NCBI GenBank assembly: GCA_000702685.1
Contig: JNJD01000007.1
Location: 372,001-436,000, forward strand
Direction of reading: 5' to 3'
DNA: 64,000 nucleotides
From: Lachnospiraceae bacterium AC2028
GTDB taxonomy: Bacteria; Bacillota; Clostridia; Lachnospirales; Lachnospiraceae
Shown here: positions 3,338-38,342 of the stretch, one piece after another
Numbering within the stretch: position 1 is the stretch's first letter
Layout of the letters: each line of letters opens with the position of its first letter
Translations under genes and position numbers: made by a program
Notes under the pieces: generated by a model
What the model saw: only the letters and a program-made list of their open reading frames with translations
What the model was told of the DNA's origin: nothing
The model's database searches: none

Positions 3338-3385
3338 AGTCTTTACCTGTTTCCTATACTCGTTATCACTTCATGTCCGGACCGG

Positions 3386-22274: not shown

Positions 22275-23277
22275 ATTCCTTCACCTCCTCCGGATCCAGT
22301 CCCTTTTCTCTGAAATATTCCACTATCCTGTCCGCTTTGTCATTATCCGCAGGGAGCTGGATCAGCATCTCTCCTTCTGCTTCACCGTTAACCGTCTGCG
22401 TATTTGCATAAAGGATATTTACGGGAGTCTTGGTTTCAAGAACTATATTGCCGAGTGTCGGTTCATATGCACTTCCGCCGTGGAAGCTTATCCTTACCAC
22501 ACGCTCGGATGTCATCTCCAGAATATGTTCGCTTCCGCTGAATACGAGCCTTCTTGCTTCCGCGGTCTTAGGCGATCTGAAAAGCTGCTCTGTGGTTCCG
22601 CTTTCAACAAGCTTACCGTGTTCGAGAACGGCGACATGATCGCATATCTCCTGGATGACACTCATTTCGTGAGTTATGACTACGATGGTTATTCCGTACT
22701 TTTCATTTATCTCTTTTAGAAGAGACAGTATCGATTTTGTCGTCTGAGGATCCAGCGCGCTGGTAGCCTCATCACACAGAAGTATCTCGGGTTTTGAAGC
22801 AAGCACTCTTGCTATCGCCACTCTCTGCTTCTGTCCGCCGGAAAGCTGTGCGGGATATGCATTAGCCTTCTCGGTAAGTCCGACGGCCTCCAGATATTCG
22901 AGCGCTTTCTTCCTTGCATCTTTTTTTCTGTGACCTGAAATCTCCAATGGAAAAGCGACATTGTCCACTACACTCCTTTGCATGAGAAGGTTGAAGTGCT
23001 GGAATATCATTCCGATCTTTCTTCTCTCGGTGCGCAGCTGTCTGTCGCTTAATTCGGTGAGGCTCTTTCCGTTTACTATGACTTCTCCCGAAGAAGGTCT
23101 CTCCAGGAGGTTCATACACCTCACGAGGGTGGATTTACCCGCCCCCGAGAGGCCTATGATTCCATAGATGTCCTTCTTTTCAATCTCCAGGCTTACATCA
23201 GTAAGAGCTGCCACCTCACCTTTTTCGGAGACAAATTTCTTATTCAATTGTCTGATCTCTATGATCTTCTCGCTCAT
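22240..23277 (-). CDS. metN: Methionine ABC transporter ATPase
   Basis: 345 residues. Walker A GLSGAGKSTLV (about residue 42), Q-loop IFQHFNLL, signature LSGGQKQRVAIARVL, Walker B ILLCDEATSALDP and H-loop VVITHEM. The last 80 or so residues form the NIL domain that in E. coli MetN binds methionine and inhibits transport. It lies 47 bp behind metQ and overlaps metI. Confidence 0.95.
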   Translation of the reverse strand: MSEKIIEIRQLNKKFVSEKGEVAALTDVSLEIEKKDIYGIIGLSGAGKSTLVRCMNLLERPSSGEVIVNGKSLTELSDRQLRTERRKIGMIFQHFNLLMQRSVVDNVAFPLEISGHRKKDARKKALEYLEAVGLTEKANAYPAQLSGGQKQRVAIARVLASKPEILLCDEATSALDPQTTKSILSLLKEINEKYGITIVVITHEMSVIQEICDHVAVLEHGKLVESGTTEQLFRSPKTAEARRLVFSGSEHILEMTSERVVRISFHGGSAYEPTLGNIVLETKTPVNILYANTQTVNGEAEGEMLIQLPADNDKADRIVEYFREKGLDPEEVKEYAESAGNTDDN

Positions 23278-23324
23278 GGTACGATATCCGTCCGGTTAAT
23301 GTCAGCGCTTTGTAAAGCTGCCGA

Positions 23325-24248
23325 TTATTTGAAGGGTACAACTGCTCCGTCATAAGTGTCATTGATGAACTGAACGATCTCATCGGACTTAAGAACCTCT
23401 ACAAGTGCCTTGATTCCCTCATCGTTCTCGTGTCCTTCCTTGACAGCGATGATGTTAACGTAGGTCTGTGCTGCGGTTGAATCATTGGATTCATATGCAA
23501 GTGCATCCTTGCCTACCGAAAGTCCTGCTTCAAGTGCATAGTTTCCGTTGAGGACTACATATGCCGCATCAGGGATCGCATCCTTAACGCTCTCAGCTGC
23601 AAGCTCGATGATCTTGACCTGAACATTGTAAGACTCGATATCGTTAACGGTTGCGGTGAGTCCCGCACCCTCTCTGAGAGTAAGGATTCCGTTATCCTGA
23701 AGCAGAAGAAGTGCTCTTGCTTCATTGGTGGTATCGTTTGGAACTGCAATCTCATCACCGTCTGCGATATCATCAAGGCTTGACTTGGTTCCTGCGTAGA
23801 TTCCGAAAGGCTCATAGTGAATGCCGCCTGCATTTACAAGGTGTGTTCCCTGTTCATCATTAAACGAGTTGAGGTAAGGGATGTGCTGAAAGTAGTTTGC
23901 ATCAAACTCTTCGGACTCGACTACGTTGTTGGGCTGAACATAATCATCGAATACGGTGACCTTAAGTTCCCAACCTTCCGTCTCAAGGATCTTAGCTGCT
24001 TCTGCAAGGATCTCCGAATGGGGAGTCTGGCTCGCCGCTACGGTAATAGTTCCCTTGATCTCGGGTGCCTGCTCTGCGTTTGCATCCGCTCCGGCATCGG
24101 CAACCTGTGCATCGGCGCTTGCGGTCTGATCATTTGAAGGTGCTGTGGTCTGTGCATCGGATGTATTTCCGCATCCTGCAAGAAGGCTTCCTGCAATACC
24201 TGCTGCTGCAATGACGCTTACTAACTTCTTTACAAAATTCTTTTTCAT
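23325..24248 (-). CDS. metQ: Methionine-binding lipoprotein
   Basis: 307 residues. A lipoprotein signal MKKNFVKKLVSVIAAAGIAG ends in a lipobox at SLLAGC (about residue 26), followed by a low-complexity Asp/Ala/Gln linker. The mature part is NlpA/MetQ: VAASQTPHSEILAEAAKIL, YVQPNNVVESEEFDANYFQHIPYL, GIYAGTKSSLDDI and IAVPNDTTNEARALLLLQ. It is the first gene behind a sulfur-box promoter. The ligand is expected to be L- or D-methionine; related thioether compounds are possible. Confidence 0.93.
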   Translation of the reverse strand: MKKNFVKKLVSVIAAAGIAGSLLAGCGNTSDAQTTAPSNDQTASADAQVADAGADANAEQAPEIKGTITVAASQTPHSEILAEAAKILETEGWELKVTVFDDYVQPNNVVESEEFDANYFQHIPYLNSFNDEQGTHLVNAGGIHYEPFGIYAGTKSSLDDIADGDEIAVPNDTTNEARALLLLQDNGILTLREGAGLTATVNDIESYNVQVKIIELAAESVKDAIPDAAYVVLNGNYALEAGLSVGKDALAYESNDSTAAQTYVNIIAVKEGHENDEGIKALVEVLKSDEIVQFINDTYDGAVVPFK

Positions 24249-25058: not shown

Positions 25059-25162
25059 AGTGTTCACCTCATAAAAACACAAAACAATTTTCTTTATGAT
25101 CCCATTATGGCCAAACGCCCTTTATATGTAAATTTTATAAAAACTATCGCCGATTATAAAAT

Positions 25163-25186
25163 AAGGCTATCACGACGGATAGCCTT
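25163..25186 (-). terminator. lysR terminator
   Basis: AAGGCTATC-CGTCGT-GATAGCCTT stem followed by ATTTTATAA on the minus strand, 14 bp behind the lysR stop. It would end the whole nitrogenase-like operon. Confidence 0.7.
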
Positions 25187-25199
25187 AGAAGATCTTTTA

Positions 25200-26096
25200 T
25201 CATTTTACGGCTTTGAGTTTTTTGATGAACAGCTTGCCCATCTCGCTTATCTCGCTGCCTTTTCTTGTTATATACCCGAAAGTGAGTATTTCCTGTTCCT
25301 TGAGCTTGATTACCTTTATGTCCGAAGCGTTCAGACTGTCACCAAGCATTGCGGCTCCGACTGCGTATCCGTTAAGTCCGAGCATCAGTTCTACGGATGT
25401 CGCTCTTTCGTTAGTATAGATAGCTTTCTTGTAATCGTATGTCGCAAGAGCTTCTTCTCTGTAATAGAACGAATTGTAATCACCCTGGTCAAAAACCATG
25501 CAAGGATAATCCTTCAGATCCTCAAGCGATATCTCTCTTTTTTTCGCTAGAGGATGATCCTTCTTCAGATAAACATAACTGTTCCTTGTAAACAGTTCAT
25601 GGAATTCCAGAGATGCATCCACAAATATCTTCTTGAACGTATTCTTGTTGAAATCACTTAGTGCAATGACACCGATCTCGCTTTTGAGATTCTTTACATC
25701 CTCAATGACTTCACCGGTCTGCGTCTCACGGATGGAATACTGATACTGCTCATAGTCGTATTCCCTGACAGTTTCGATAAATGCATTTACCGCAAATGTA
25801 TAATGCTGCATAGATACGGAAAATGAAGGCTTCTCGTTACCCGCATCAAGATATTTATTCTCTATGATCTCAAACTGTTCCACCGCATGCCTTGCGTAGG
25901 CGATAAAGGACGCTCCGGCGGAAGTGGTGACTACGCCGTTATGGACTCTTTCGAAAATCTGAATTCCGAGTTCATTCTCAAGATCCCTTACGGCACTTGA
26001 AAGACCCGGCTGTGATACATAGAGTCTGTCGGCCGCTTTTCTCATAGAGCATTCTTCATCTATCGCTATAACGTATTTAAGCTGCAGTATGGTCAT
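25200..26096 (-). CDS. LysR-family regulator, CysB/CmbR/MetR-like
   Basis: 298 residues. The N-terminal winged helix-turn-helix reads LKYVIAIDEECSMRKAADRLYVSQPGLSSAVRDLENELGIQIFERVHNGVVTT in outline (residues 5-60), followed by a dimerisation helix and a type 2 periplasmic-binding-like effector domain. AAGGAG precedes the ATG. It is the last gene of the nitrogenase-like operon and lies beside the methionine transporter, so it is the best candidate to bind the four sulfur boxes. Effector (for example O-acetylserine, homocysteine or methionine) is not predictable. Its pairing with the boxes is inference. Confidence 0.88.
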   Translation of the reverse strand: MTILQLKYVIAIDEECSMRKAADRLYVSQPGLSSAVRDLENELGIQIFERVHNGVVTTSAGASFIAYARHAVEQFEIIENKYLDAGNEKPSFSVSMQHYTFAVNAFIETVREYDYEQYQYSIRETQTGEVIEDVKNLKSEIGVIALSDFNKNTFKKIFVDASLEFHELFTRNSYVYLKKDHPLAKKREISLEDLKDYPCMVFDQGDYNSFYYREEALATYDYKKAIYTNERATSVELMLGLNGYAVGAAMLGDSLNASDIKVIKLKEQEILTFGYITRKGSEISEMGKLFIKKLKAVK

Positions 26097-26137
26097 ATAC
26101 AGATCTCCTTTTCTTCAAAATCTGCATACATAATACC

Positions 26138-26156
26138 ATACTGCAGCCTGCAGTAT
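26138..26156. repeat. 19-bp perfect palindrome before lysR
   Basis: ATACTGCAGCCTGCAGTAT has 9-bp arms around a single centre base. It lies 42 bp before the lysR ATG and 7 bp behind the ABC ATPase stop. No T-run follows in either direction. A minus-strand TATTAT is just downstream, so it could be an operator for separate lysR expression. Confidence 0.45.
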
Positions 26157-26162
26157 ATACCT

Positions 26163-26828
26163 TTAGTTTAATAGGTGTCCTTTTTCCATCCGGTAAAGGA
26201 TATCGGCCCTTTCTTCCACAAGACTGTCATGGGTTATAAGAAGTATTCCCCTGCCTTCGTCAGCCTGTTTTCTGAAAGCGTCCATGATCCTTGATGCATT
26301 TTCCGGGTCAAGCTCGCCGGTCGGTTCATCCGCAAATATATATTCATGACCACCGGATATTGCCCTGACGACAGCGGCTCTCTTCATTTCTCCGCCGGAC
26401 AGCGAACTCGGAAAAACATCCAGAAGGTCTTCTATTTCCAGATCCTTTATGTAATCTGCAAGCTTTTCTTCGCCGTCATTACCGGCTATTCCCGAAAAGC
26501 TCTTCTGGAGATCTATGTTTTCTCTCACGGTAAGGCCACCGATAAGGCTCTGCACCTGGGGAACTATTCCGATCTTTTTTCCGCGGAGCTTATCCCTTTC
26601 CCTGCTTTTCAGGCTCAGAAGCTCGGTATCATCAATACGCACCGTGCCACCTTCGGGAACTATCATTCCGGCAAGGATATTTAGGAGAGTGCTTTTTCCG
26701 CTTCCGGAATTGCCCGTTACGACCGTGATCTTTCCCTTCGGAACAGATATGCTCACTTCATCAACAGCGCGGAAAGTTTTCCCTCGTCTTACATATTCTT
26801 TTGTTATGTTCACGGATTCAATCGACAT
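26163..26828 (-). CDS. ABC transporter ATPase, LolD/MacB type
   Basis: 221 residues. Walker A GNSGSGKSTLLNIL, Q-loop VPQVQSLIGGLTV, signature LSGGEMKRAAVVRA, Walker B YIFADEPTGELDP and H-loop LLITHD are all present, so it is active. It starts 1 bp behind the FtsX-like permease with which it must form a complex of the MacB/LolCDE class. It lies in the nitrogenase-like operon, between the importer genes and lysR. The substrate is unknown; members of this class export or act mechanically rather than import. Confidence 0.88.
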   Translation of the reverse strand: MSIESVNITKEYVRRGKTFRAVDEVSISVPKGKITVVTGNSGSGKSTLLNILAGMIVPEGGTVRIDDTELLSLKSRERDKLRGKKIGIVPQVQSLIGGLTVRENIDLQKSFSGIAGNDGEEKLADYIKDLEIEDLLDVFPSSLSGGEMKRAAVVRAISGGHEYIFADEPTGELDPENASRIMDAFRKQADEGRGILLITHDSLVEERADILYRMEKGHLLN

Positions 26829-26829
26829 A

Positions 26830-28035
26830 TCAGTTTTCTCCGTCCCTCATAAGAACATAGCAATCCGTCTTTCCGGCTTTGGCTCCGGCGACGATCCCGG
26901 GAATCGCTCCGCTCAATACGGTAATAAGTATCGAAAAAAGAGATACAATGATTATCTGAACGGCTCCCGGTCCGTAATACGGAAAAGCGATTGCGTCGGC
27001 TATCATTTTGCTGAAAGGAAAAACCGCAAGTGATGCCAGGATGATCCCAAGGATTGCTCCGGCACCGGACATGATGATGTTTTCAAGAAGTATCAGTCTC
27101 AGTATCCAGCCTTCGGATGCGCCCATCATCCTGAGAACAGCCCATTCTTTTCGTCTGGTGTTCACGCGGAATACGCTGAGTATTGCGGTTACGAGTGTGA
27201 CAATGATGACCATGATCCAGGTTATGACAGTCAGCATTTTGGATATGACACCTATACCGTCCGTGACGGATGAAAGCATATTCTTGCTCTGGACAACGCT
27301 GACAAGACTGTTCCTTGAAATTCTTCCGGCAATAACTTCCGCATCCGATCCTTCTTTCACGCGTATGAGAAATGCGGATACATACCTGTCCGTTATTCCC
27401 TCATCCGATCCGTCTCCGAATTCGATGCCCTTTTCGCGTGCATCGGCAAGCATCAGCTCCATGACATCAAATGTGACATATACAGACTTGTCCATTCCGG
27501 TCCCGGTCCTGTTCAGTCTTGCCCTGACATCATATGTTCTTCCGAAAAAAGTAAGTGTATTATTTCCGTCAAGTGCAATATTGGCTCCCGCTATAAGATC
27601 TCCGTTGCCGAGCCGGAGCGAATAATCCTCCGAGATCCAGGGTGAAGTCACAAAATCCGTTTCGGGATCATATCCGATTATCTGTATCGGAACGCTGCAG
27701 CATGAGGCATTGAGGCTTGCAAGATATATTACCGGCGTTACTTCTTCAACACCGTCCATCGCGCGGAGTTCATCCTCCAGTCTTCTGTCCATCGAACATT
27801 CAACCGGTTCACCGCTGAGTATGATCCCCTGGTAGCTGTTCTCCGAGCCTCTGGGAACAACGGCAATATCCGCACCGAGCCTCTCACGCAGGTTCTCCAT
27901 TCCGCGTGTAAGGCTTGTGTCAAGAATGCGTCCCGCAAATACGGTAAAAGATAAGAGAAGTGCAAAAAGAAAAACTGCAGATGCTCCGATCGATCCGTAT
28001 ATCAGTTTTTTAAATGCCACTTCTCTTATCTTCAA
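26830..28035 (-). CDS. FtsX/MacB-type ABC permease
   Basis: 401 residues. One N-terminal membrane helix (about residues 12-36) is followed by a large extracytoplasmic domain of about 215 residues and three C-terminal helices (around 265-385), the MacB/FtsX layout. The ectodomain begins with a helix rich in Arg/Glu and contains one Cys-pair segment, NASCCSVP. It is paired with the ATPase behind it and preceded by DUF4418, 6 bp away. Function in the operon is unknown. Confidence 0.83.
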   Translation of the reverse strand: MKIREVAFKKLIYGSIGASAVFLFALLLSFTVFAGRILDTSLTRGMENLRERLGADIAVVPRGSENSYQGIILSGEPVECSMDRRLEDELRAMDGVEEVTPVIYLASLNASCCSVPIQIIGYDPETDFVTSPWISEDYSLRLGNGDLIAGANIALDGNNTLTFFGRTYDVRARLNRTGTGMDKSVYVTFDVMELMLADAREKGIEFGDGSDEGITDRYVSAFLIRVKEGSDAEVIAGRISRNSLVSVVQSKNMLSSVTDGIGVISKMLTVITWIMVIIVTLVTAILSVFRVNTRRKEWAVLRMMGASEGWILRLILLENIIMSGAGAILGIILASLAVFPFSKMIADAIAFPYYGPGAVQIIIVSLFSILITVLSGAIPGIVAGAKAGKTDCYVLMRDGEN

Positions 28036-28041
28036 ATTCTT

Positions 28042-28452
28042 TTACCTTGTTTTCTTTTCTATGGATATGTCTCTTGCGATCAATAGAGCAAGAATCACGG
28101 AGACTGTTATATCCAATGCACCGATCACTATAAGTGCGGGTTTGGTCGTTGATACGCAGTGCATCATAGGACTTCCGCACACCCCGATGATAGCGGTGGG
28201 AATCAGTATTATCACCAGACCGAGTATTGCCTGAACCGCGGAAAGCGTGATCCTGATCTTGTTCTTATCGATAAGGATTATCGCTATTCCCACTATGGCG
28301 GCGATGATACCGACTGCAACTTCCGCATTTGCGGCATAGTAACATTTCATCTTCATTTCCGCAGCAGAGCAAACGGGAAATAATGTTCTGGGGCCTATTG
28401 CCGCAAGTAATCCGAGCACTGCCGTGATCGCGGCAAGTATCTTATTTTTCAT
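28042..28452 (-). CDS. DUF4418 family membrane protein
   Basis: 136 residues with four predicted membrane helices and a conserved cysteine motif in the first extracytoplasmic loop (LFPVCSAAEMKMKCYY), plus further Cys residues in GVCGSPMMHC. I recognise it as DUF4418, a family often found beside MacB-like ABC genes in Clostridia. The paired extracytoplasmic cysteines could bind metal or form disulfides. Its function is unknown. Confidence 0.7.
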   Translation of the reverse strand: MKNKILAAITAVLGLLAAIGPRTLFPVCSAAEMKMKCYYAANAEVAVGIIAAIVGIAIILIDKNKIRITLSAVQAILGLVIILIPTAIIGVCGSPMMHCVSTTKPALIVIGALDITVSVILALLIARDISIEKKTR

Positions 28453-28463
28453 ATTGGTTCTCC

Positions 28464-29258
28464 TTAGATCATGTATTCGATATTTTCTTCCTGATGTGCA
28501 AAATCAAGTTTTTCCAGAATGTGATTTCTGTAATAGGTAAAGTTCTTATCACTTCTGTTTCTCGGATACGGAAGATCTATCTTCAGGTCTTCGATGACAC
28601 GTCCGGGTCTCGGAGACATTACTATGACTCTCTGTGAAAGATAGATTGCCTCGTCAACATCATGAGTGATGAGTACCATGGTATTTTCTTCCGATTTCCA
28701 AAGATCGATAAGCGCATCCTGTATGCTCATTCTCGTGAATGCATCAAGCGCACCGAGAGGCTCATCAAGAAGAAGGGCATCCGGTTCATTGGTAAGAGCT
28801 CTTACAAGAGCAACTCTCTGACTCATACCACCCGAAAGCTGATTCGGATAAGTTTTTTTGAATTTTTCCAGACCTACCTGCTTCAGAAGTTTCTCGGCAA
28901 GTGCGATCTTTTCCTTGTCCTTGATCTTGCCTGTCGATTTAGGTCCAAACAGGATATTGTCCCATACCGTAAGCCAGGGGAAGAGCGCATGGTTCTGGAA
29001 AACAAGACCTCTTTTCTCACTGGTTCCGGTAACGGTCTCTCCGTCAAAGATCACTTCTCCGAGAGTAGGTTTCTCAAGTCCCGCAATTATCCTGAGCATT
29101 GTGGATTTTCCACATCCGCTCGCACCGACTATCGAAACAAATTCACCGGGTTCGATCGAAAGATTGATATGATCCAGTGCAGTCAGTGTCTGCTCTTCTT
29201 CACTTCTTCTGAAGATCTTCGATACATCTTTTATTTCTATTTTTCCGACTGCCATCAT
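28464..29258 (-). CDS. NitT/TauT (SsuB-like) ABC importer ATPase
   Basis: 264 residues. Walker A GASGCGKSTMLR, Q-loop VFQNHALFPWLTV, signature LSGGMSQRVALVRAL, Walker B LLLDEPLGALD and H-loop VLITHD. It belongs to the nitrate/sulfonate/taurine family. Its ATG overlaps the permease stop (ATGA). With the next two genes it makes a complete importer. In this sulfur context, an organosulfur substrate is likely. Confidence 0.9.
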   Translation of the reverse strand: MMAVGKIEIKDVSKIFRRSEEEQTLTALDHINLSIEPGEFVSIVGASGCGKSTMLRIIAGLEKPTLGEVIFDGETVTGTSEKRGLVFQNHALFPWLTVWDNILFGPKSTGKIKDKEKIALAEKLLKQVGLEKFKKTYPNQLSGGMSQRVALVRALTNEPDALLLDEPLGALDAFTRMSIQDALIDLWKSEENTMVLITHDVDEAIYLSQRVIVMSPRPGRVIEDLKIDLPYPRNRSDKNFTYYRNHILEKLDFAHQEENIEYMI

Positions 29259-30283
29259 ACACCTCCGTCCTGCCAGCGAAGCACTCTTTTCCTTATAAGT
29301 CCCAGTAATGAGTTCACAAGTATGAAGGTGATACAGATGAGTATGATCGCACCGTACATCTTGGTAAAATCACCCCATCCCTTCTGCCAGTTGATGTACC
29401 ATCCGAGTCCGGCTTCAACGCCCATCATCTCGGCAACAACAAGTGTCAGACATGCAATGCTCATTCCCTGTGTAAGTCCTGTAAATATTCCGGGCATGGA
29501 TGCAGGAATGACGACTCTGGTCAGTATTCCCAGCTTATTGGTGCCAAGGGTTTCAGCTGCTTCGTAATAATGCTTCTGAACATTCTGAACACCGGTCATA
29601 GCGGATATTGTGACAGGAAACCATACACCGAGCCCTATCAGGAATGCTGCGCCTCCGAAAAGGGAGGACGCAAGCATCATGACGATCGGCATATATGTTG
29701 TGGTCGGAATCGCACCGAGCACCTTGGTGACGGGCTGTATCCAATAATGTATCTTTTTGGACCATCCTGCGAGTATTCCGCTTGCAAGTCCGATTGATAC
29801 CCCTCCGAAATATCCGGTGAACATCAGCTTAAGCGAATGATAAACGCATTCCCAGAGCTTGCTTCTGTCCGATACCATTGCATCAAGCACTCTTCCGATC
29901 CAGGGAAAATACGGAAGTGCAAGAACACCGGTCTTGAGCGTTGCCACATCATAAGCAGTGAGCAAAACCGCGATCACAGTATAAAGTGCACTCTTGAATC
30001 TTATCTTCTCATATGCCCTGAACGAAATGTATGAAAGTATTATTCTTACGGCATGGAACAATGCCAGCAATCCTATCAGAAATGCATAAACCGTTGAAGG
30101 TTTATAGTTCTTGATCCCGGGAAAAAACAGATGCTCGAACAGATGTATCAATGTGAAGATCAAAGGAAGAAAAACCGTACATCGTCTTAGGATCCTGTCT
30201 CTGGAGGTAAGGTCTTTCTGCTCAAGCAGAGACAATTCCCGTTCCGATATATTTCCTTTTTTGATTTCTGTCTGTTCAGCCAT
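29255..30283 (-). CDS. NitT/TauT-type ABC importer permease
   Basis: About 342 residues, longer than usual SsuC (about 260), because of an N-terminal extension with two or three extra membrane helices (roughly residues 40-115). The BPD permease core follows, with the EAA loop YYEAAETLGTNKLGILTRVVIPASMPGI. The ATG at 30283 with GGAG upstream is chosen over a TTG at 30307. It is the channel for the lipoprotein encoded just before it. Confidence 0.87.
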   Translation of the reverse strand: MAEQTEIKKGNISERELSLLEQKDLTSRDRILRRCTVFLPLIFTLIHLFEHLFFPGIKNYKPSTVYAFLIGLLALFHAVRIILSYISFRAYEKIRFKSALYTVIAVLLTAYDVATLKTGVLALPYFPWIGRVLDAMVSDRSKLWECVYHSLKLMFTGYFGGVSIGLASGILAGWSKKIHYWIQPVTKVLGAIPTTTYMPIVMMLASSLFGGAAFLIGLGVWFPVTISAMTGVQNVQKHYYEAAETLGTNKLGILTRVVIPASMPGIFTGLTQGMSIACLTLVVAEMMGVEAGLGWYINWQKGWGDFTKMYGAIILICITFILVNSLLGLIRKRVLRWQDGGV

Positions 30284-30299
30284 TATATATTCTCCGTTA

Positions 30300-31421
30300 T
30301 CACTCAATCTTGGTCAGATCGTATTTTACAAGAAACTGCTCTTCCGCATTTGACAGATCGAAATCCTGGGGAAGAAGTCCGAGATCTTTATATTCCTGTC
30401 CGATGACATTGGTTGTTCCGATAAGTTCTTTGGTTCCGAATCCGTAATGAAGAAGGTTGATAAGTTCGATACCCATTTCCCTTGTGCAGGATATGTACTG
30501 CTGATCGATAAGAAGATCTACAGCCTGCTCACGGTTTTCTTCACTTTCCTCAAGCCACTTGGATGCTCTGTATACGGCTCTGGTGATCTTATATACGGTT
30601 ACGGGATTCTTCTCAACAAAGTCCTTGCTGAATCCGAGTGAGCAGCAAACTTCTCCTTCAAAGTCGGGATCGTAATCCTGGGAACGAATGATCTTAGTGT
30701 AACCGGCATCAACAAAATTATAGATAAGCTCATCACTTGCAACGATGGCGTCTACCTGTCCTTCCTGAAGTGCTGCAAGAAGAGTTCCGGCATCAAGTGC
30801 GACCCAGGTAAAATCATCCGCGGTAAATCCATCGTGATTGACAAATCTGAGTCCGATGTTATGGAAAAGTCCACCGATTCCTCCGGCAACTCCGATCCTC
30901 ATGCCCTTTTCAAATCCGTCATATTCAGAATCGGTAAGTGTGGCAGCCGAGGCACATCCGGAGTGAAGAGCGAGTGTACTTACAACCTCTTCACCGTTCT
31001 GGTAGTAAAGGAGCCAGTCTGATAAGAATCCGATAGCTACGGTAAGGTTTCCCGATGCAAGTGCATCTCTTGCGGCATCTCCGGAGATCTGAACGAATTC
31101 AAATGACTCGATTCCTTCATCCTCTACAAATCCGAGATACTTGGCAACCGGAAGAGCTACGGGGCAAAGAGATCCGGTGTAGTTGACCGTTATGGTCTGT
31201 CCGTATGCGGGTTCCTTTTCATATAGAGCATTGAGTTCCTCTTCACTCAGAGCGGAATAATCGATAAGTCCGTCCGCATTAACGACTGCTCCCTGAGCCT
31301 GTCCGAGTGCAAGTCCGGATGACGAAGATCCCGAGTCGCTGCTTCCTCCGCCCGTACATCCCGTAAGAAGTAATACCCCCGCAGAAAACAAAGCTATAAG
31401 TTTTGCTGATATTTTTTTCAT
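30300..31421 (-). CDS. Substrate-binding lipoprotein, NitT/TauT family
   Basis: 373 residues. Lipoprotein signal with lipobox LLLTGC at about residue 22, then a Gly/Ser linker. The mature part is an SsuA/NMT1-like fold: a first lobe with VNYTGSLCPVALPVAKYLGF, the segment SGDAARDALASGNLTVAIGFLSDWLLYYQNG, and a hinge segment GMRIGVAGGIGGLFHNIGLRFV. The family binds nitrate, sulfonates, taurine or thiamine precursors. It follows nifD-like by 26 bp in the same operon. Import of an aliphatic sulfonate or thioether substrate is inferred from context. Confidence 0.86.
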   Translation of the reverse strand: MKKISAKLIALFSAGVLLLTGCTGGGSSDSGSSSSGLALGQAQGAVVNADGLIDYSALSEEELNALYEKEPAYGQTITVNYTGSLCPVALPVAKYLGFVEDEGIESFEFVQISGDAARDALASGNLTVAIGFLSDWLLYYQNGEEVVSTLALHSGCASAATLTDSEYDGFEKGMRIGVAGGIGGLFHNIGLRFVNHDGFTADDFTWVALDAGTLLAALQEGQVDAIVASDELIYNFVDAGYTKIIRSQDYDPDFEGEVCCSLGFSKDFVEKNPVTVYKITRAVYRASKWLEESEENREQAVDLLIDQQYISCTREMGIELINLLHYGFGTKELIGTTNVIGQEYKDLGLLPQDFDLSNAEEQFLVKYDLTKIE

Positions 31422-31447
31422 TTTCTATCTCCTCTTTTCTGTAGTTT

Positions 31448-32983
31448 TTAATCTTTGAGATATGCGAAGGGATCCTTCTCATACCAGGATTTCTTGTAAG
31501 GGAACTTCACATGCTTGGATACCTCCTTGACATATGAATCATTTTCAAGTGCGAATGCAAGCTGCCTTGCAACCTGGAATACTCCGTTATATCCGAAGTA
31601 TGCTCCGCCTACATCAAATTCGGGAACGGTGACCGCTCCGAGTTTTGCGGGTTCCGAAAGACCGTTTGCGTGGCACAGTACGATATCCGGCTTATATGTC
31701 TTGACCTGATTGACGAACTCGTAAGGCTGGTCGCTGATCACTACGGGCACATCGGGATGATCCTTGGTAAGTTCCTCGAACGAAGGCTCTGCGTTTGAGT
31801 CATACAGCAGTCCGATGACAGATACGATCTCCATTCCGAGGTCATCATGTATAAGCGATGCTTCAACCGCACTTCTTACGGCACCGCCCGAGATCATCAC
31901 TCTCTTTCCCTTGAGTTTTTCCTTGAATGGTGCGATTGCTTCGAGCACAAGTTTTTCTTCGTAATCGGCAAGTCTTTCCGCTTCAGCCTTCAGTCCGAAG
32001 TGCTCTCCGATATCCACGAGCCACTTTCTTGTTGCCTTAAGCCCGAGAGGCATTCCCATGTAATAGGGGACATCGTATTTATCCTTGAGATACTTTACGA
32101 AGTAATCGTCATGCATCCAGCAGAGGCTTACATTGAGAGCCGATTCGGATACGAATCTGATCTTGTCTGCGTTGCTGTACTCGGGAAGGACATTTACGTT
32201 CAGGTTAAGTCCGTTCAGAATCCTGGTAAGTTCGTTTTCGTCCTGGGGACCCATCGACTCGAGCGTCATGACGTTAACCGTGTATTTCTTTTTATATTCG
32301 TAACCTGCGGCAAGGAATCCGGAAGCGGGATCTGCGGGATTCAGAGGCACATAATCCTTGTAAGCTATCGGTTCAAGCTTGATATGTCTGATCAGTGCAT
32401 GATAGAAAGCATCGTATGCACTTGATACGTATTTCGATCTGAAGCCGGGACAGTGGATCGCGGTAAGCTGGGCTGATACAACCTTGCTTTCATCGGATAT
32501 TATCTTCTCGACATCATCACCTATTATGTTCGGTGCACATGTCGAAAGTACGAAGATGAATTCCGGCCTGAATGTTTTGTCAGCATATTCGATCGCTTCC
32601 CTGAGCTTTTTCTCGCCGCCGTTTACTATCTCGGTGGTTGAAAGATTTGTCGAAAGCCAGTTAACGGGCTTGGGAACAAGTCCTCTTGCCGTCTTTCCCG
32701 CGTTAGTCGAATTTGTGACCATATGAAGCTGGTGTCCGCATCCTACAGGTCCGTGCATTATCAGAACCGTATTTTCGATCGGTGCCGACATCATTACCGA
32801 AAGGAACATCTGACATGCCGAACTTCCCTGCCAGAAGTCTCTGTCCCTGCCCTTAAGGCAGCAGTTTCTTGAACATTCAAGAAGATCACAGCTACATCCG
32901 TGATATGCATCGGTTGCTTCAAGCCTTTCCTCTCTGGTAGGAGGTATGGCTTTTTCTACATATTTATTCTCAAGTTCGCTCAT
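31448..32983 (-). CDS. Nitrogenase-like alpha (NifD-like) subunit
   Basis: 511 residues, NifD/NifE superfamily. P-cluster cysteines fit C57 (SSACQM), C82 (HGPVGCGHQ) and C149 (LSTCAPNIIGDD), spaced as in NifD 62/88/154. C288 (SLCWMHDDYF) lines up with the FeMo-cofactor ligand Cys275. The second cofactor ligand, His442 of NifD (PYHGYDG), is Phe463 here (GGAYFGYNGV). The Gln191/His195 region of NifD aligns with FRSKYVSSAY, so those N2-reduction residues are missing. An extra Cys-rich segment (C30, C32, C37, C41, C42) is absent from NifD. The partner is the NifK-like gene 8 bp before it. It is a reductase for something other than N2. The alignments are by eye. Confidence 0.87.
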   Translation of the reverse strand: MSELENKYVEKAIPPTREERLEATDAYHGCSCDLLECSRNCCLKGRDRDFWQGSSACQMFLSVMMSAPIENTVLIMHGPVGCGHQLHMVTNSTNAGKTARGLVPKPVNWLSTNLSTTEIVNGGEKKLREAIEYADKTFRPEFIFVLSTCAPNIIGDDVEKIISDESKVVSAQLTAIHCPGFRSKYVSSAYDAFYHALIRHIKLEPIAYKDYVPLNPADPASGFLAAGYEYKKKYTVNVMTLESMGPQDENELTRILNGLNLNVNVLPEYSNADKIRFVSESALNVSLCWMHDDYFVKYLKDKYDVPYYMGMPLGLKATRKWLVDIGEHFGLKAEAERLADYEEKLVLEAIAPFKEKLKGKRVMISGGAVRSAVEASLIHDDLGMEIVSVIGLLYDSNAEPSFEELTKDHPDVPVVISDQPYEFVNQVKTYKPDIVLCHANGLSEPAKLGAVTVPEFDVGGAYFGYNGVFQVARQLAFALENDSYVKEVSKHVKFPYKKSWYEKDPFAYLKD

Positions 32984-32991
32984 ATTTCCTC

Positions 32992-34338
32992 CTATCTGCC
33001 TGAAACCGGAACGGTGATAAGATCTGTCAGGAGATTAAGTCCTCCGTTATATCCCGAATACCCACGGTATGTAATGACTCTGTTCGATACGGGATACGAT
33101 AATGCGAAATACAGTGCACCGATATCCTGAGCCGCATATTTTTCAAGTGAGCTTCCCACTATATAAAGAGGTCCGTGCTGATCAAAATATCTCTGTCCCT
33201 GATTGCGCGCATGTCTCTTATTGAGTGCCCATGCTATCTGTTTGGTATCCGATTCCCTGATAAGTTCGCCGGGAGTTTCGGATGCTTTAAACGCTTCTTC
33301 GAACTTCCTAGCCCTGGGCTTGGTCAGAAGATCCGTTACAAATACATCATCAACCTTCCAGCCGAGTTCTCCCTTCAAAAACTTTGCAAGAGGGATGGCG
33401 TAATTGGAATTGGTAACCGTAGCTCCGTAGTAGAAGAACTGTGAGTTGATAACCAGATCCAGTGTTTTGATAAAATAGTTGTAATATCTCTCTTCTTCCG
33501 AAGCGATGACTTTCTCGAGAAGTTCCTTATCGATATCGATGTGTTCGGAAAGTTCTCTGAGGAAAGCCGTTGTCTGTACCGCGCCTATCGGAAGATCCGT
33601 TATCCAGGAAGGAGTTCCGTGCTTATCTTCAAATTTCTTTTCGAAATCTACTCCCCACACTCTTGAGAAATGAATATTGAGTGATGCCTTTGATGCACTG
33701 AGTATGTTTTCAAAGGTCTGATCGGGTGTGAAAAATGTATTAACCCTAAGCCCTAAACCTTCAAGTATTCTTTTTATCTCTTCAAGGTCACCTCTGTATG
33801 AAGGATCAAAATTTGGAATCAGTCCAAATATGTTTACCAGCTTGGGATCTTTTTCATCCGAAACAGGTACATAACTGTTAAAGACTCCTTCCAAAACACG
33901 TTCGTATCCTGAATAGGCATCCCCTTCGAAGCTGGGAGTGTTGACCCCGATGACCGGAGTTTCCGCATCTGCGAACTCTTCAACAACTGCCTGAACATCA
34001 TCACCGATGATCTCGGTCATACATCCGGTTACTACAACAAATAATTTCGCTTCCAATAATTCCTGTGCTGATTTGATCTCCTGTCTTAGTCTGTCGGTTC
34101 CTCCGAAAACTACATTTCTTTCTCTGACGGCACTTGAAGGTATCTGTGTTCCTCCGCAGTATCCTTCCCCGTTATATCCCGAGAGATTTCCGATGGATCC
34201 CGCAAGGTTTCCGGCACATCCCTCCGCAGCATGTGATATAGCGATCACATCAGGCAATGAGGACAGAGTTGCCAGAGCGCCTCCCTGTGCGCAGGTCGTT
34301 CTCGGTCTTTCTACGATTCCTTTTGCTGAATTTCCCAT
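32992..34338 (-). CDS. Nitrogenase-like beta (NifK-like) subunit
   Basis: 448 residues. It has P-cluster-type cysteines at C16 (TTCAQGGA), C41 (AEGCAGNLAG) and C106 (VVTGCMTEIIGDD), with spacing like NifK 70/95/153, and an extra C61. It lacks the N-terminal extension of NifK, so it resembles the shorter beta subunits of nitrogenase-like enzymes. It would form an alpha2beta2 complex with the NifD-like protein and receive electrons from the NifH-like protein. It is 10 bp behind the cysteine synthase gene. Confidence 0.87.
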   Translation of the reverse strand: MGNSAKGIVERPRTTCAQGGALATLSSLPDVIAISHAAEGCAGNLAGSIGNLSGYNGEGYCGGTQIPSSAVRERNVVFGGTDRLRQEIKSAQELLEAKLFVVVTGCMTEIIGDDVQAVVEEFADAETPVIGVNTPSFEGDAYSGYERVLEGVFNSYVPVSDEKDPKLVNIFGLIPNFDPSYRGDLEEIKRILEGLGLRVNTFFTPDQTFENILSASKASLNIHFSRVWGVDFEKKFEDKHGTPSWITDLPIGAVQTTAFLRELSEHIDIDKELLEKVIASEEERYYNYFIKTLDLVINSQFFYYGATVTNSNYAIPLAKFLKGELGWKVDDVFVTDLLTKPRARKFEEAFKASETPGELIRESDTKQIAWALNKRHARNQGQRYFDQHGPLYIVGSSLEKYAAQDIGALYFALSYPVSNRVITYRGYSGYNGGLNLLTDLITVPVSGR

Positions 34339-34348
34339 TTGTCACCTC

Positions 34349-35293
34349 TTAGTGAGTATCTGTAGGATACTGATACAATACTGTTGAAAGATATCTCTCT
34401 CCGGTATCCGGAAGGAGTGCAACTATTGTCTTGCCTTTGTTCTCCGGTCTTTTTGCAAGCATCAATGCCCCTGCGGCAGCTGCTCCGGATGATATTCCGA
34501 CGAGCAATCCTTCTTTTCTTCCGAGAAGTCTGGATGTGTCTATTGCTTCGTCGCCTCTGATCTGAAGGATCTCATCTATCACATCTTCTCCGAAGACTTT
34601 GGGAACGAAGCCGGCACCTATACCCTGTATCTTGTGAGGTCCCGGATTTCCGCCTGACAGAACAGGTGATTCAAAAGGCTCCACCGCAACGATCTTCACA
34701 TCGGGATTTAACTTCTTAAGACCTCTTCCCACACCGGTTACGGTTCCGCCGGTTCCTACTCCGGCAACGAAGATGTCTACTTTGCCGTCCGTGTCATTCC
34801 ATATTTCCTGCGCGGTCGTATTTTCATGAGTCCTTGCATTCGCACCGTTTTCAAACTGCTGAAGTATCACGCTGTTTTCGATCTGTGCATTAAGAGCTTC
34901 GGCCTGCCTTATCGCTCCCTTCATTCCCTGCGCTCCGGGTGTAAGTACCACCTGTGCTCCGAGTGCGGTTACGAGAGTTCTTCTTTCAACGCTCATCGTA
35001 TCAGGCATTGTAAGTATCACGTTGTAGCCCTTGATCGCTCCGACAAAAGAAAGTCCTACTCCGGTATTTCCACTGGTGGGTTCTATGATCGTCGAACCGG
35101 GTTTAAGAATTCCCTTCTCCTCGGCATCTTCTATCATTCCGAGTGCGATCCTGTCCTTGACGGAACCTGCCGGATTAAAGTATTCGACTTTGAAGTACAC
35201 TTCTGCATCCGTTTCATTTTCCTTCAGGAATCTGTTAGGCTTTAACAGTGGTGTATTTCCCACGAGTTCCGTAAGATCCTGTGCTACTTTCAT
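34349..35293 (-). CDS. cysK: Cysteine synthase within the nitrogenase-like operon
   Basis: 314 residues, canonical O-acetylserine sulfhydrylase: NPAGSVKDRIALGM, TSGNTGVG, TMSVERR, GVGTGGTVTG, GPHKIQGIGAGFVP, GISSGAAAAG. Unlike the copy at 14019 it retains every CysK landmark. It lies between nifH-like and nifK-like genes with gaps of 22 and 10 bp, so it is translated together with the enzyme. The natural reading is that sulfide released by the nitrogenase-like enzyme is captured as cysteine. A role in supplying sulfur to cluster assembly is the alternative. Confidence 0.9.
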   Translation of the reverse strand: MKVAQDLTELVGNTPLLKPNRFLKENETDAEVYFKVEYFNPAGSVKDRIALGMIEDAEEKGILKPGSTIIEPTSGNTGVGLSFVGAIKGYNVILTMPDTMSVERRTLVTALGAQVVLTPGAQGMKGAIRQAEALNAQIENSVILQQFENGANARTHENTTAQEIWNDTDGKVDIFVAGVGTGGTVTGVGRGLKKLNPDVKIVAVEPFESPVLSGGNPGPHKIQGIGAGFVPKVFGEDVIDEILQIRGDEAIDTSRLLGRKEGLLVGISSGAAAAGALMLAKRPENKGKTIVALLPDTGERYLSTVLYQYPTDTH

Positions 35294-35315
35294 CTGCTTC
35301 TCCTCCGTTTATGCA

Positions 35316-36206
<891 letters not shown>

Positions 36207-36620
36207 CTATTCTTCATCTTCTATTCCGTAATCACGGAGAAGTTTTCTGGCTTTCTCCAATCGTAGCCTTTTCTTGTCCCTGTAATCCCTGACTTTTGCA
36301 ATGGCCTCATCGATCGGTCCGACATGATCCAGTGTGATGATGTCTTTTCTGGCAAGAGCCTGTGAAGCTCTTCCGCCCGTTCTGGCCGCGAGTACGAACT
36401 CTACATCGGATAACTGTTCGGCGATCTCTTCAAATGCCTTATCTCCTCCGCAGGTTGCACCCTTGCAGGCTGTCTGGTCGATATCCCGGAACCGGGAATC
36501 AACGACCTCCCCTGTTTCGGAATCCACTTCGAACACAACGAATCTGTCGGTATGTCCGAAATGGGAATCAACATTTATCTCATCGGTAGTTGCTACCGCA
36601 ATCCTGAATGTATCACCCAT
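36207..36620 (-). CDS. NifX/NafY-like iron-sulfur cofactor carrier
   Basis: 137 residues, dinitrogenase iron-molybdenum cofactor biosynthesis family: RIAVATTDEINVDSHFGHTDRFVVFEV is the typical opening, followed by a Cys pair in ACKGATCGG and VLAARTGGRASQAL. A charged helix (about residues 112-137) ends it. It would hold or deliver the NifB-made cluster. It overlaps the radical SAM gene by 8 bp. In some Clostridia NifB carries this domain as a fusion; here it is a separate gene. Confidence 0.85.
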   Translation of the reverse strand: MGDTFRIAVATTDEINVDSHFGHTDRFVVFEVDSETGEVVDSRFRDIDQTACKGATCGGDKAFEEIAEQLSDVEFVLAARTGGRASQALARKDIITLDHVGPIDEAIAKVRDYRDKKRLRLEKARKLLRDYGIEDEE

Positions 36621-37482
36621 GGGAAAACGTCTCCTTTACATTAAGTCTTCCTTTATAAAGGGAAGCACCTATGTCATATACTCCCGGGACTCCGCATGCA
36701 TCCGCTCTGCAGTGCTGGCAATGTCTGAATACGTTTATATAAACCTCTGCTTCAGCTCTTGCCTTGTATAACTCTTCACAGGTCGGTGCCTTCAGATCCT
36801 TCATTTCATTCTGCGGGATCAGCGGAATGATGTTATAGATCGATGCACCGGCAGTCTTTACTGTAGCTGCGACATCTTCTATATGTTCATCATTCACCCC
36901 CGGGACAAGTACCGTGTTTACCTTGACCAGGGTTCCGGCTTTCGAAACCTTTCTGATACCCGATAACTGATTCTTTATAAGGATCTCTGCAGCCTCCGTT
37001 CCGGTATAGATCTTGCCGTGATAGATGATCCTGTTATTGATCCTGGCTTGTATTTCCGGATCGACGGCATTTACGGTAACCGTCAGAGTATCTACCAGTT
37101 CGATCACTTCATCTGCTTTTTCATCGAGAAGAAGTCCGTTCGTGCTCATGCACTTTATAAGCTTCGGATATCTGTCCTTGATCAGGCGGAATGTCTTCAG
37201 CGCCCGGTCCGTTGCGAGCGTATCTCCCGGGCCCGCGATTCCGACCACGGTTATCTCCGGGCATTTTTCAAGTGCCAGATCGATGAAGTGAGCCGCCTCT
37301 TCAGGTTCAAGGACCGCGCTTGTCACTCCGGGTCTTTGTTCATCCTCATTGATCTTCCTGTCACAGAATCTGCACTCTATGTTGCACCCAGGTGCTACAG
37401 GCAGATGAATTCGTCCTTTATTCTGTTTGCACGGTCCGAAGCACGGATGCTCCTTGAAGACCGTTTCACGATCAAGTGCCAT
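36613..37482 (-). CDS. NifB-like radical SAM enzyme
   Basis: 289 residues. Radical SAM motif CNIECRFC (about residue 34), a preceding HPCFGPCKQNKGRIHLPVAPG typical of NifB, and the C-terminal HCQHCRADACG motif. NifB makes the carbide-containing 8Fe-9S-C precursor cluster. The C-terminal NifX domain is absent and encoded by the next gene. With no nifEN or nifV nearby, the enzyme probably uses the NifB product without further maturation. It is the first gene of the operon, behind a 220-nt leader. Confidence 0.9.
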   Translation of the reverse strand: MALDRETVFKEHPCFGPCKQNKGRIHLPVAPGCNIECRFCDRKINEDEQRPGVTSAVLEPEEAAHFIDLALEKCPEITVVGIAGPGDTLATDRALKTFRLIKDRYPKLIKCMSTNGLLLDEKADEVIELVDTLTVTVNAVDPEIQARINNRIIYHGKIYTGTEAAEILIKNQLSGIRKVSKAGTLVKVNTVLVPGVNDEHIEDVAATVKTAGASIYNIIPLIPQNEMKDLKAPTCEELYKARAEAEVYINVFRHCQHCRADACGVPGVYDIGASLYKGRLNVKETFSHG

Positions 37483-37600
37483 ATCACACCTCTTTCTTGT
37501 TGGTGAAATTCTATCAAACGATTATGTTGTACAAAATCATACATATCTTATAGTGAGCCATTACTTTTTCTTATCGCCCTATAAGGATTTGTTATCTCCG

Positions 37601-37633
37601 AATAAAAAAGGAGGGTGCGGATCAACCGCACCC
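37601..37633 (-). terminator. Intrinsic terminator inside the nitrogenase-like operon leader
   Basis: GGGTGCGG-TTGAT-CCGCACCC then TCC and TTTTTT on the minus strand. It lies about 65 nt downstream of the predicted +1 and 120 bp before the nifB-like gene. It may end read-through from the flavin reductase gene, act as an attenuator, or both. Confidence 0.8.
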
Positions 37634-37649
37634 AAAATGTGGAGGTAAA

Positions 37650-37683
37650 TATGTAAAAGCGCTTGTCACTTGCTGATTACATA
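37650..37683 (-). promoter_or_regulatory. Leader hairpin before the terminator
   Basis: TATGTAA (37683-37677 on minus) pairs perfectly with TTACATA (37656-37650), with AGC/GCT pairing possible inside. It forms early in the leader RNA, 17 nt before the terminator. No known riboswitch class is recognised. Confidence 0.4.
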
Positions 37684-37703
37684 CTACGATATCAATATGC
37701 ATT

Positions 37704-37750
37704 TGTATAATTCTCTTTATCTAGGGCAGGCTATAACTTTTGTTTATAAC
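37704..37750 (-). promoter_or_regulatory. Sulfur-box promoter of the nitrogenase-like operon
   Basis: Box CTATAACTTTTGTTTATAAC (37731-37750), 21 bp, -10 TATACA (37709-37704) on the minus strand. This matches the lanC-like, metY and metQ promoters in sequence and spacing. The box is entirely within the last codons of the flavin reductase gene. Confidence 0.75.
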
Positions 37751-38342
37751 TAAAAGAGTTTCTCTCCGCAGAACCTGCGGTATGCTTTGCTCTGAAATCC
37801 CCGATCCTTCCGAGCATTTTCCCGAGGCTGTGATATCTTCCGGAATATATGACCGGATCGAGCACCGTAAGATCCACATCAAATGTGTCTTCACAGATCA
37901 GATTTTCATCCATCTGAATATTTCTTATGGGGCAGAAGAATGTAGTTGAATCACCGGTCTCCACCGATCTTGCGACCTCGCACTCATATACCCAGGGACT
38001 TTCATCCAGTGTAGGCACTTCCAGCACTTCACCGTGCCCCACACCGTACACGGGTTCTTCCACTTTTTTGTCCACTGAATGTTTCGTCCCGAAATAATCC
38101 ATGAGCGGAAGCATTGATGTATTCACAAGATTTGCGCTGAACTTTCCGTCCCTGATGACATTTTGTTTGGTCTTCTTGGAACCGAACATACTGATCACAA
38201 GCATATAGCTGTCTCCCTCACACGTCGCGCTTACCCATGTGATCGGTGCAAAGTTATATGACCTGTCTTCGTTATATGTTCCGATTATGAATGACGGCTG
38301 TACGCACATCGAATATATAGGTTCTACAGATCTTCTTTTCAT
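37731..38342 (-). CDS. Flavin reductase-like (FMN-binding split barrel) protein
   Basis: 203 residues. The pattern RSVEPIYSMCVQPSFIIGTYNEDRSYNFAPITWVSATCEG opens a flavin reductase-like domain that binds FMN and acts as an oxidoreductase or flavoredoxin. GSKKTKQNVIRDGKFSANLVN is the conserved centre. A poorly conserved tail rich in Ser/Lys ends the protein, and its final codons coincide with the sulfur box of the next operon. It starts 18 bp behind the HAD-like gene. A link to the nitrogenase-like system (electron supply or sulfur substrate processing) is possible but not shown. Confidence 0.8.
   Translation of the reverse strand: MKRRSVEPIYSMCVQPSFIIGTYNEDRSYNFAPITWVSATCEGDSYMLVISMFGSKKTKQNVIRDGKFSANLVNTSMLPLMDYFGTKHSVDKKVEEPVYGVGHGEVLEVPTLDESPWVYECEVARSVETGDSTTFFCPIRNIQMDENLICEDTFDVDLTVLDPVIYSGRYHSLGKMLGRIGDFRAKHTAGSAERNSFSYKQKL

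Follow-up and report, generated by a model that had tools for sequence, protein, structure and literature searches.

The stretch of DNA considered here (the window) comprises 64,000 nucleotides of Lachnospiraceae bacterium AC2028 (assembly GCA_000702685.1, contig JNJD01000007.1, positions 372,001 to 436,000), from a genome of 2.77 Mb in 14 contigs that is 99.6% complete. It carries a nitrogenase-like operon with a cysteine synthase gene (cysK) embedded in it. Thirteen open reading frames (ORFs), all intact, make up a single unit on the minus strand, running from window position 37482 down to 25200 in the order nifB core, nifX-like, nifH, cysK, nifK-like, nifD-like, binding protein, permease, ATPase, DUF4418, FtsX, LolD-type ATPase and LysR, with intergenic distances of -8, 33, 22, 10, 8, 26, -8, -4, 11, 6, 1 and 66 bp. 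An original prediction, made from the sequence alone, had already recognized thirteen same-strand genes with tiny gaps (here -8 to 66 bp) and had placed CysK, an importer and a LysR regulator in one unit, as we find them; of the limits it gave, 25200 is right, while 37750 overruns into a flavin-reductase-like gene.

37613..37633, minus strand: terminator-like hairpin upstream of the operon, 8 bp stem followed by a T run (consensus scan)
36613..37482, minus strand: NifB-like radical SAM protein, core domain only, with Cys33, Cys37, Cys40 and further conserved-looking cysteines (TIGR01290, 271 bits, below the cut-off of 344; best PDB sequence match NifB, 7jma, 303 bits)
36207..36620, minus strand: NifX/NifB-C-terminal-like cluster-binding protein (PF02579)
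35316..36173, minus strand: NifH, Fe protein, the reductase component (TIGR01287, 455 bits, cut-off 394; tree)
34349..35293, minus strand: CysK, O-acetylserine sulphhydrylase of an operon-linked lineage (TIGR01139, 434 bits, cut-off 351; alignment; tree)
32992..34338, minus strand: NifK-like subunit with predicted P-cluster ligands Cys16, Cys41 and Cys106 (PF00148; MarK 9d9u_C, E 8e-63)
31448..32983, minus strand: NifD-like catalytic subunit with predicted P-cluster ligands Cys57, Cys82 and Cys149, cofactor ligands Cys288 and His438, and a clade-specific His291 (PF00148; alignments; AF2 model)
30300..31421, minus strand: lipoprotein substrate-binding protein of the NMT1/SsuA/Thi5 fold, with conserved Cys86, His153, Cys156 and Cys259-Cys260 (model, alignment, fold match)
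29255..30307, minus strand: ABC importer permease; nearest NCBIfam model SaoP, below cut-off
28464..29258, minus strand: ABC importer ATPase; nearest NCBIfam model SaoA, below cut-off
28042..28452, minus strand: DUF4418 membrane protein (PF14387)
26830..28035, minus strand: FtsX-like ABC permease (PF02687)
26163..26828, minus strand: LolD/MacB-type ABC ATPase (PF00005; TIGR02211 below cut-off)
25200..26096, minus strand: LysR-type regulator (PF00126 and PF03466)
25162..25187, minus strand: terminator-like hairpin downstream of the operon (consensus scan)

The operon is real, conserved and under selection. Butyrivibrio hungatei DSM 14810 (L051), a rumen species, has this operon too, with its genes in the same order, and comparison of the window with that genome gives ratios of nonsynonymous to synonymous change (pN/pS) of 0.06-0.13 for NifB, NifH, CysK, NifK and NifD, with NifX, FtsX and LolD looser, at 0.32-0.37. 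Taking the hairpins at both ends of the operon as terminators is suggestive only: the scan counted 17 terminator-like sites in the region, where shuffled sequence gave 10.9. The promoter scan returned 22 sites against 22.8 in shuffles, that is, no excess, and a riboswitch or T-box leader was discarded as a candidate, the window having no Rfam match at gathering thresholds. Just upstream lies the flavin-reductase-like gene (37731-38342), separated from the operon by a terminator-like hairpin.

A nitrogenase-like pair with its own clade

The NifD/NifK-like pair is not a nitrogenase by model score or by tree, nor is it the known methylthio-alkane reductase (Mar) or isethionate reductase (Isr), and in setting it apart from nitrogenase the original prediction was correct. 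Both subunits lie far under the nitrogenase model cut-offs (the D protein reaches 141 of the 654 bits required by the NifD model TIGR01282). Their best solved relatives by sequence are MarD and MarK, and the AlphaFold (AF2) model of the D protein, with a mean predicted local distance difference test score (pLDDT) of 92.1, finds its best fold match in MarD 9fmg_A (template-modelling scores, TM, of 0.83/0.91, at 24% identity), the best NifD reaching 0.69/0.73. Identity to MarD is about 24-27% for the window's D protein and ranges from 24 to 35% in its clade. As a profile search of the source genome detected no PF00148 protein besides these two, there would be neither NifE nor NifN in this organism.

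To gather relatives, a profile built from 15 D proteins was run against a genome collection. The best 80 of 564 confirmed loci come from Bacillota, where they are common, and from Spirochaetota, Synergistota, Fusobacteriota, Thermodesulfobacteriota, Myxococcota and a Planctomycetota metagenome-assembled genome (MAG), so that the clade spans several kinds of anaerobes; among the matches listed, the named genomes whose D proteins most resemble that of the window are a Lachnospiraceae MAG (94%), a Butyrivibrio MAG (92%) and B. hungatei DSM 14810 (91%). In a tree of 72 rows the 42 representative D proteins of the clade make one branch, with support 100/98, which neighbours the Mar-like proteins and some smaller groups and is remote from NifD, VnfD and NifE; the window's D protein is in this clade, outside the grouping of MarD (9d9u). 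Sequence comparison thus draws a widespread branch of the nitrogenase family, common in Bacillota and separate from Mar, as the original prediction had surmised when it spoke of a distinct subsystem. Since other genomes of this genus (L031, L035, L036) encode Mar-like D proteins with 39-42% identity to MarD, this clade is not merely a local form of Mar. We found no paper defining the clade, its residues or its importer in the literature searched, a corpus in which subscription journals and bioRxiv are largely outside coverage.

The active site shows both kinship with Mar and distance from it. In an alignment of 122 D proteins, including 91 clade members and 17 sequences of a Mar-like set (16 loci and 9d9u, defined by residues and similarity), all 91 clade proteins keep the three P-cluster cysteines (57, 82 and 149 in the window), the cofactor cysteine (window 288, MarD 270) and the loop-I cofactor histidine (window 438, MarD 429). 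The NifK-like cysteines 16, 41 and 106 are kept in 80, 81 and 81 of 81 sequences. The equivalent of MarD Arg428, which, beside His429, has been named a possible hallmark of Mar (PMC12552129), is a gap in 91/91 clade proteins and Arg in 17/17 of the Mar-like set; the position of Phe199 is Tyr throughout the clade and Phe throughout the Mar-like set; Trp195 is found in 6/91 clade proteins (the window has Val) against 17/17. Just past the cofactor cysteine the clade has an invariant His291-Asp292 (91/91), with Leu at the place of the histidine in 17/17 Mar-like proteins. Because these ligands are intact and NifB has its expected cysteines, the NifDK-like protein is expected to hold a P-cluster and an Fe8S9C cofactor, in a pocket unlike that of Mar.

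The Mar-like set is not monophyletic in the tree: a five-member group, the RA group, is nested inside it. This further nitrogenase-like group of the Mar-like branch (L065:5445-6890, L066:3556-5019, L037:6151-7620, L087:1474-2955 and L089:7655-9127) has D proteins that keep Arg428 and Trp195 and replace the cofactor histidine by Ala, Gly or Val, and four of its five genes share a locus with a CysK-linked clade member.

The Fe protein and the putative cofactor-building proteins

The NifB-like protein can be aligned over its core to NifB structures, and the cysteines expected of NifB are in place; the NifX-like part is encoded by a separate gene. NifH was called merely NifH-like by the original prediction, a label that had to be discarded since the protein passes the equivalog model; its best PDB match is 1cp2, with 476 bits, MarH 9fmg_D reaching only 279 bits. 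Clustering with true N2-fixing nitrogenases had been set beforehand as the outcome that would speak against the prediction, and in this respect the operon gives a mixed answer: by score NifH belongs with the nitrogenase Fe proteins, but the scores of D and K are not those of a nitrogenase. The loci of the clade in fact use two Fe proteins that differ widely. The nitrogenase type is that of the window, of most Lachnospiraceae members and of a few other Clostridia, and it is also met in Mar-like loci; the other type, about 50% identical to it, serves the remaining clade loci, including that of one Lachnospiraceae MAG (L067).

A cysteine synthase that travels with the reductase

CysK is generally linked to sulphide, and MetY to methanethiol. 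When every ORF and each of the 91 clade D proteins is taken into account, a same-strand CysK lies within 5 kb of the D gene in 34 of the 39 clade loci with full 5-kb flanks (62/91 when truncated contigs are included); the corresponding figures for the Mar-like set are 0/7 when fully flanked and 3/16 overall, each of these three loci also holding a clade member. MetY or MetB is near D in 4/39 fully flanked clade loci, against 4/7 Mar-like loci. The link is typical of the clade, not exclusive to it.

The distances between D proteins and those between CysK proteins are correlated (Mantel r 0.763, 45 non-redundant pairs, 0/2000 permutations as high), and the correlation over 410 cross-phylum pairs is 0.72. 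In the CysK tree a starred group of 25, the window's operon copy included, mixes four phyla, while the distance rule used in that run labelled this same copy 'far'. A single origin of all operon CysK proteins was considered and rejected: because the other operon copies are scattered in the tree, only the starred group is clearly co-inherited with the reductase. The window protein has the motif TTAQEIW where housekeeping copies typically have TTGPEIW; a TxAxEI motif is present in 51/55 operon-near CysK proteins, and TTGPEIW in 10/18 other copies as well as in the operon copies L045, L120 and L122.

That Cys275-bearing NifD-like genes are associated with a cysteine synthase was remarked in 2012 by Dos Santos et al. 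(PMC3464626), who suggested a role in sulphur metabolism and gave as examples, with O-acetylhomoserine sulphhydrylase or cysteine synthase, Rhodospirillum rubrum, C. beijerinckii and Geobacter FRC-32. The integrated CysK, one of the features by which the original prediction found this unit more complete than the Mar clusters it knew, is present, but the association itself is not new; the analysis of residues, co-inheritance, importer and genome context comes in addition to the 2012 remark.

The importer and its cysteine-rich binding protein

The best NCBIfam model of the binding protein is SsuA_fam, with 53 bits for a cut-off of 164, and the second is SaoX. All three importer subunits fall below the cut-offs of the selenocysteine-assisted organometallic (SAO) system, at 275/360 bits for SaoA, 100/295 for SaoP and 20/300 for SaoX, and in this they differ from it. 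The structural model (pLDDT 88.9) has the SsuA/TauA/Thi5 fold. A fold search for specificity was tried and set aside, as it matched the whole NMT1/Thi5/SsuA/TauA/NrtA family.

The binding protein also has a set of four cysteines and a histidine. Across an alignment of 31 homologues reaching down to 20% identity, Cys259, Cys260 and His153 never vary, and Cys86 and Cys156 hardly do; among 63 aligned binding proteins from the loci studied, 34 have the full Cys4-His set, 15 only the Cys pair and 14 no pair, and the full set is also seen in two Mar-like loci. The Cys259-Cys260 pair aligns with a pair in 3un6 (the title of which ends 'with Zin', presumably zinc) and also matches the iron-binding run of cysteines in yeast Thi5. 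By this alignment the conserved Cys/HxGC/Cys-Cys set is related to metal-binding proteins of the NMT1/Thi5 fold. As the Cys set is conserved and its pair aligns with 3un6 and Thi5, a metal-assisted or thiol ligand is as plausible as a sulphonate. The import of sulphonates suggested by the original prediction is not borne out by what we see, which is family and fold kinship to SsuA/TauA and, in the binding protein, an unusual conserved Cys4-His set.

The same Cys, HxGC and Cys-Cys set is common to binding proteins encoded beside nitrogenase-like genes at window 30300-31421, L032:3527-4615 and L034:3973-5085. In several of the lipoprotein binding proteins a low-complexity linker near the N terminus holds additional Cys-Cys motifs, often DCC (L026:7085-8332, L080:9002-10246, L052:6873-8096, L086:12434-13615), which look as if suited to metal or thiols.

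A proposed route from an organosulphur compound to cysteine

Taken together, these features suggest an ATP-driven, nitrogenase-type reductase that would strip the sulphur from a small imported organosulphur compound. The ABC importer would take up the substrate, NifB with NifX would build the cofactor, presumably Fe8S9C, and electrons from NifH would flow through the P-cluster to this cofactor in NifDK. There a C-S bond would be cleaved reductively, sulphur being released, on our reading of the chemistry, at the level of sulphide, and the dedicated CysK would couple this sulphide with O-acetylserine to make cysteine; LysR may switch the unit with the supply of sulphur. We give reductive desulphurization to sulphide, fixed as cysteine by CysK, somewhat better than an even chance. 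The gene set, the operon layout, the intact ligands, the placement in a clade that is not Mar, the co-inheritance of CysK and the fact that no sulphite reductase was found in the genome all speak for it. As to the latter, a search with PF01077 (the siroheme domain of sulphite and nitrite reductases) found no match in the 99.6% complete source genome, the same search being positive in 11 of 14 controls; the domain is also absent in 11/26 clade genomes, including close Butyrivibrio relatives (B. hungatei being probably counted twice). Since no sulphite reductase was found, a route releasing sulphite, of the Isr kind, would be a dead end for the window's lineage; chiefly for this reason, sulphide being moreover the substrate of CysK, we prefer the release of sulphide to Isr-like chemistry. 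The nature of the substrate is a guess: it would be a thiol (R-SH to R-H + HS-), because two kinds of genes found next to some clade loci, encoding a PatB C-S lyase (5/91) and an MtaA/CmuA-type corrinoid methyltransferase (8/91), would both generate thiols.

Several observations pull the other way. PF01077 is present in 15/26 clade genomes, so that the sulphite argument covers part of the clade; the PatB and methyltransferase neighbours are minority features; and the serine acetyltransferase candidate of the genome scores 164 bits, below its model cut-off of 211. In the D protein, the window has Leu at the place of His375, which is near the cofactor in Mar. The neighbour counts include close relatives, the loci being not all independent, and a same-strand CysK is absent in 5 of the 39 fully flanked loci; there is a CysK near 5/5 RA genes, which are outside the clade (four share a clade locus, L037 does not). 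CysK may serve general sulphide scavenging only.

Among other explanations, a function like that of Mar itself, with methanethiol cut from small methylthio compounds and made into methionine by the MetY encoded 5 kb downstream (18909-20204, above the OAH_OAS_sulfhy cut-off), CysK being accessory, is the one closest at hand. With Mar (MarBHDK, group IV-C; 9fmg, 9d9u) the operon shares the NifB/H/D/K set, the P-cluster cysteines, the equivalents of Cys270 and His429, a fold for which MarD and MarK are the best solved matches, and a sulphur context; Mar-like D genes live in the same genus, and the Mar-like loci of this family and order have the same type of NifH. Yet the D proteins are only distantly similar, the Arg428 position is deleted, Trp195 is not kept, Phe199 has become Tyr and His291-Asp292 is new; the Fe protein of the window is of the nitrogenase type, and the enzyme linked in the operon is CysK, not MetY, as it is in most fully flanked clade loci. 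We consider a Mar-type function unlikely. A desulphonation, whether it would stop at sulphite as proposed for Isr or reduce the sulphonate fully to sulphide, has a genetically proven nitrogenase-like precedent in isethionate reductase (IsrBHDK with SsuCAB, PMC11423573), whose sulphur-scavenging locus likewise encodes nitrogenase-like HDK proteins together with a radical SAM protein and an importer of the SsuA type, and the best model and the fold of the present binding protein go in the same direction. As described there, however, IsrD keeps one of the three P-cluster cysteines and does without Cys275, and IsrB is BciD-like, unlike NifB, sulphite being the proposed product; the operon has all the ligands and a canonical NifB core, its genome has no detected sulphite reductase, and we judge the Cys4-His set unexpected at a sulphonate site. 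Identity with Isr, compared through this description of IsrD, is ruled out by the ligand pattern and by the radical SAM partner, and a sulphonate substrate seems to us decidedly unlikely.

That the substrate would be an organometal, a metal thiolate or a selenium compound, CysK then being needed for thiols or sulphide freed on the way, would account for the Cys4-His set kept whole in 34/63 binding proteins, for the alignment of its Cys pair with 3un6 and Thi5, and for the fact that SaoP, SaoA and, in second place, SaoX are the nearest models of the importer subunits, all below cut-off. It is an idea to which we accord little probability: the pair may hold only a structural or helper metal, CysK points to sulphur, and no known gene for metal resistance or selenium is among the 13. 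Fixation of N2 by a group IV-A (Nfa-type) nitrogenase, as claimed with 15N2 for Endomicrobium proavitum (cited in PMC9147875 and PMC4995403), is to our eyes the least probable reading of all. As in the Mo nitrogenase NifHDK, NifH passes its model, NifB is present and the P-cluster and cofactor ligands are intact, and the window also encodes an ammonium transporter-PII fusion (Amt-PII, 8164-9924) and glutamate synthase (1874-7915). The D and K scores, the lack of NifEN in the genome and the cofactor histidine placed in a Mar-type loop nevertheless set the operon apart from that enzyme, and the genes linked to D and K are sulphur genes. There is no PII gene in the operon, nor was one found in any clade locus examined, in a single-sequence search of 7865 ORFs from loci of which many are short, where the only matches were the Amt-PII fusion of the window and two in L038, outside the clade.

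Group IV-A deserves a further comment, since MarHDK-like genes of that group have been noted near type I mlp gene clusters (PMC10418091), and some clade loci likewise have corrinoid neighbours: at L101, in Ruminiclostridium hungatei, an MtaA/CmuA-type methyltransferase (below cut-off), a B12 protein and an RACo-type protein stand beside NifDK. The operon of the window differs in having no corrinoid genes; it is likely that the clade and group IV-A are identical.

Desulphurization to sulphide, if we retain it, opens onto a broader proposal which we put forward tentatively, as possible without being probable: the clade would be a third functional class of C-S reductases of the nitrogenase family, beside Mar and Isr, with an Fe8S9C cofactor and free sulphide as its product, coupled to a CysK lineage of its own and supplied by a binding protein loaded with thiolate or metal. 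In anaerobes that have no sulphite reductase it would lay a complete path from organosulphur compound to cysteine on one transcript, and many nitrogenase-type nifH genes of gut Lachnospiraceae would then mark nitrogenase-like sulphur metabolism and not nitrogen fixation. Only a few group IV nitrogenase-like enzymes have a known function (Cfb, Mar, Isr). As the clade keeps the full cofactor ligands of Mar together with a link to cysteine synthesis, the range of chemistry open to Fe8S9C becomes directly testable, and if sulphide is released there would be a hidden route to cysteine sulphur in the rumen and the gut.

Consequences for nifH surveys

In 298 genomes of the window's family (by inference Lachnospiraceae), each of a different genus, NifH is above its model cut-off in 44. 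A NifD match at 1e-80 or better is found in nine, all within these 44, the two lists being compared by eye; the 35 others all carry weaker PF00148 proteins, of 304 bits at most, nitrogenase-like types of all kinds being pooled. We argue from these scores that most such Lachnospiraceae nifH genes belong to nitrogenase-like systems. This bears on a survey of human gut nifH, where cluster III genes related to Lachnospira and Butyrivibrio were proposed as candidate diazotroph genes, in strains given there as untested (PMC4995403): 35 of the 44 nifH-bearing genomes had no NifD match, and nifH-based counts of diazotrophs in gut samples are probably inflated.

Genes around the operon

On the same strand, the genes adjoining the operon form, by their family assignments, a sulphur amino-acid island:

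21612-24248, minus strand: MetNIQ-like transporter
20416-21600, minus strand: PatB C-S lyase, above cut-off
18909-20204, minus strand: MetY
17736-18884, minus strand: cystathionine lyase/synthase
16666-17598, minus strand: second CysK-family gene
14019-14999, minus strand: CysK-family gene, open throughout, 326 aa

Farther from the operon, the Amt-PII fusion already mentioned stands beside the glutamate synthase genes (1874-7915). Between the two CysK-family genes lies a stand-alone LanC-like protein (PF05147, 15018-16439).

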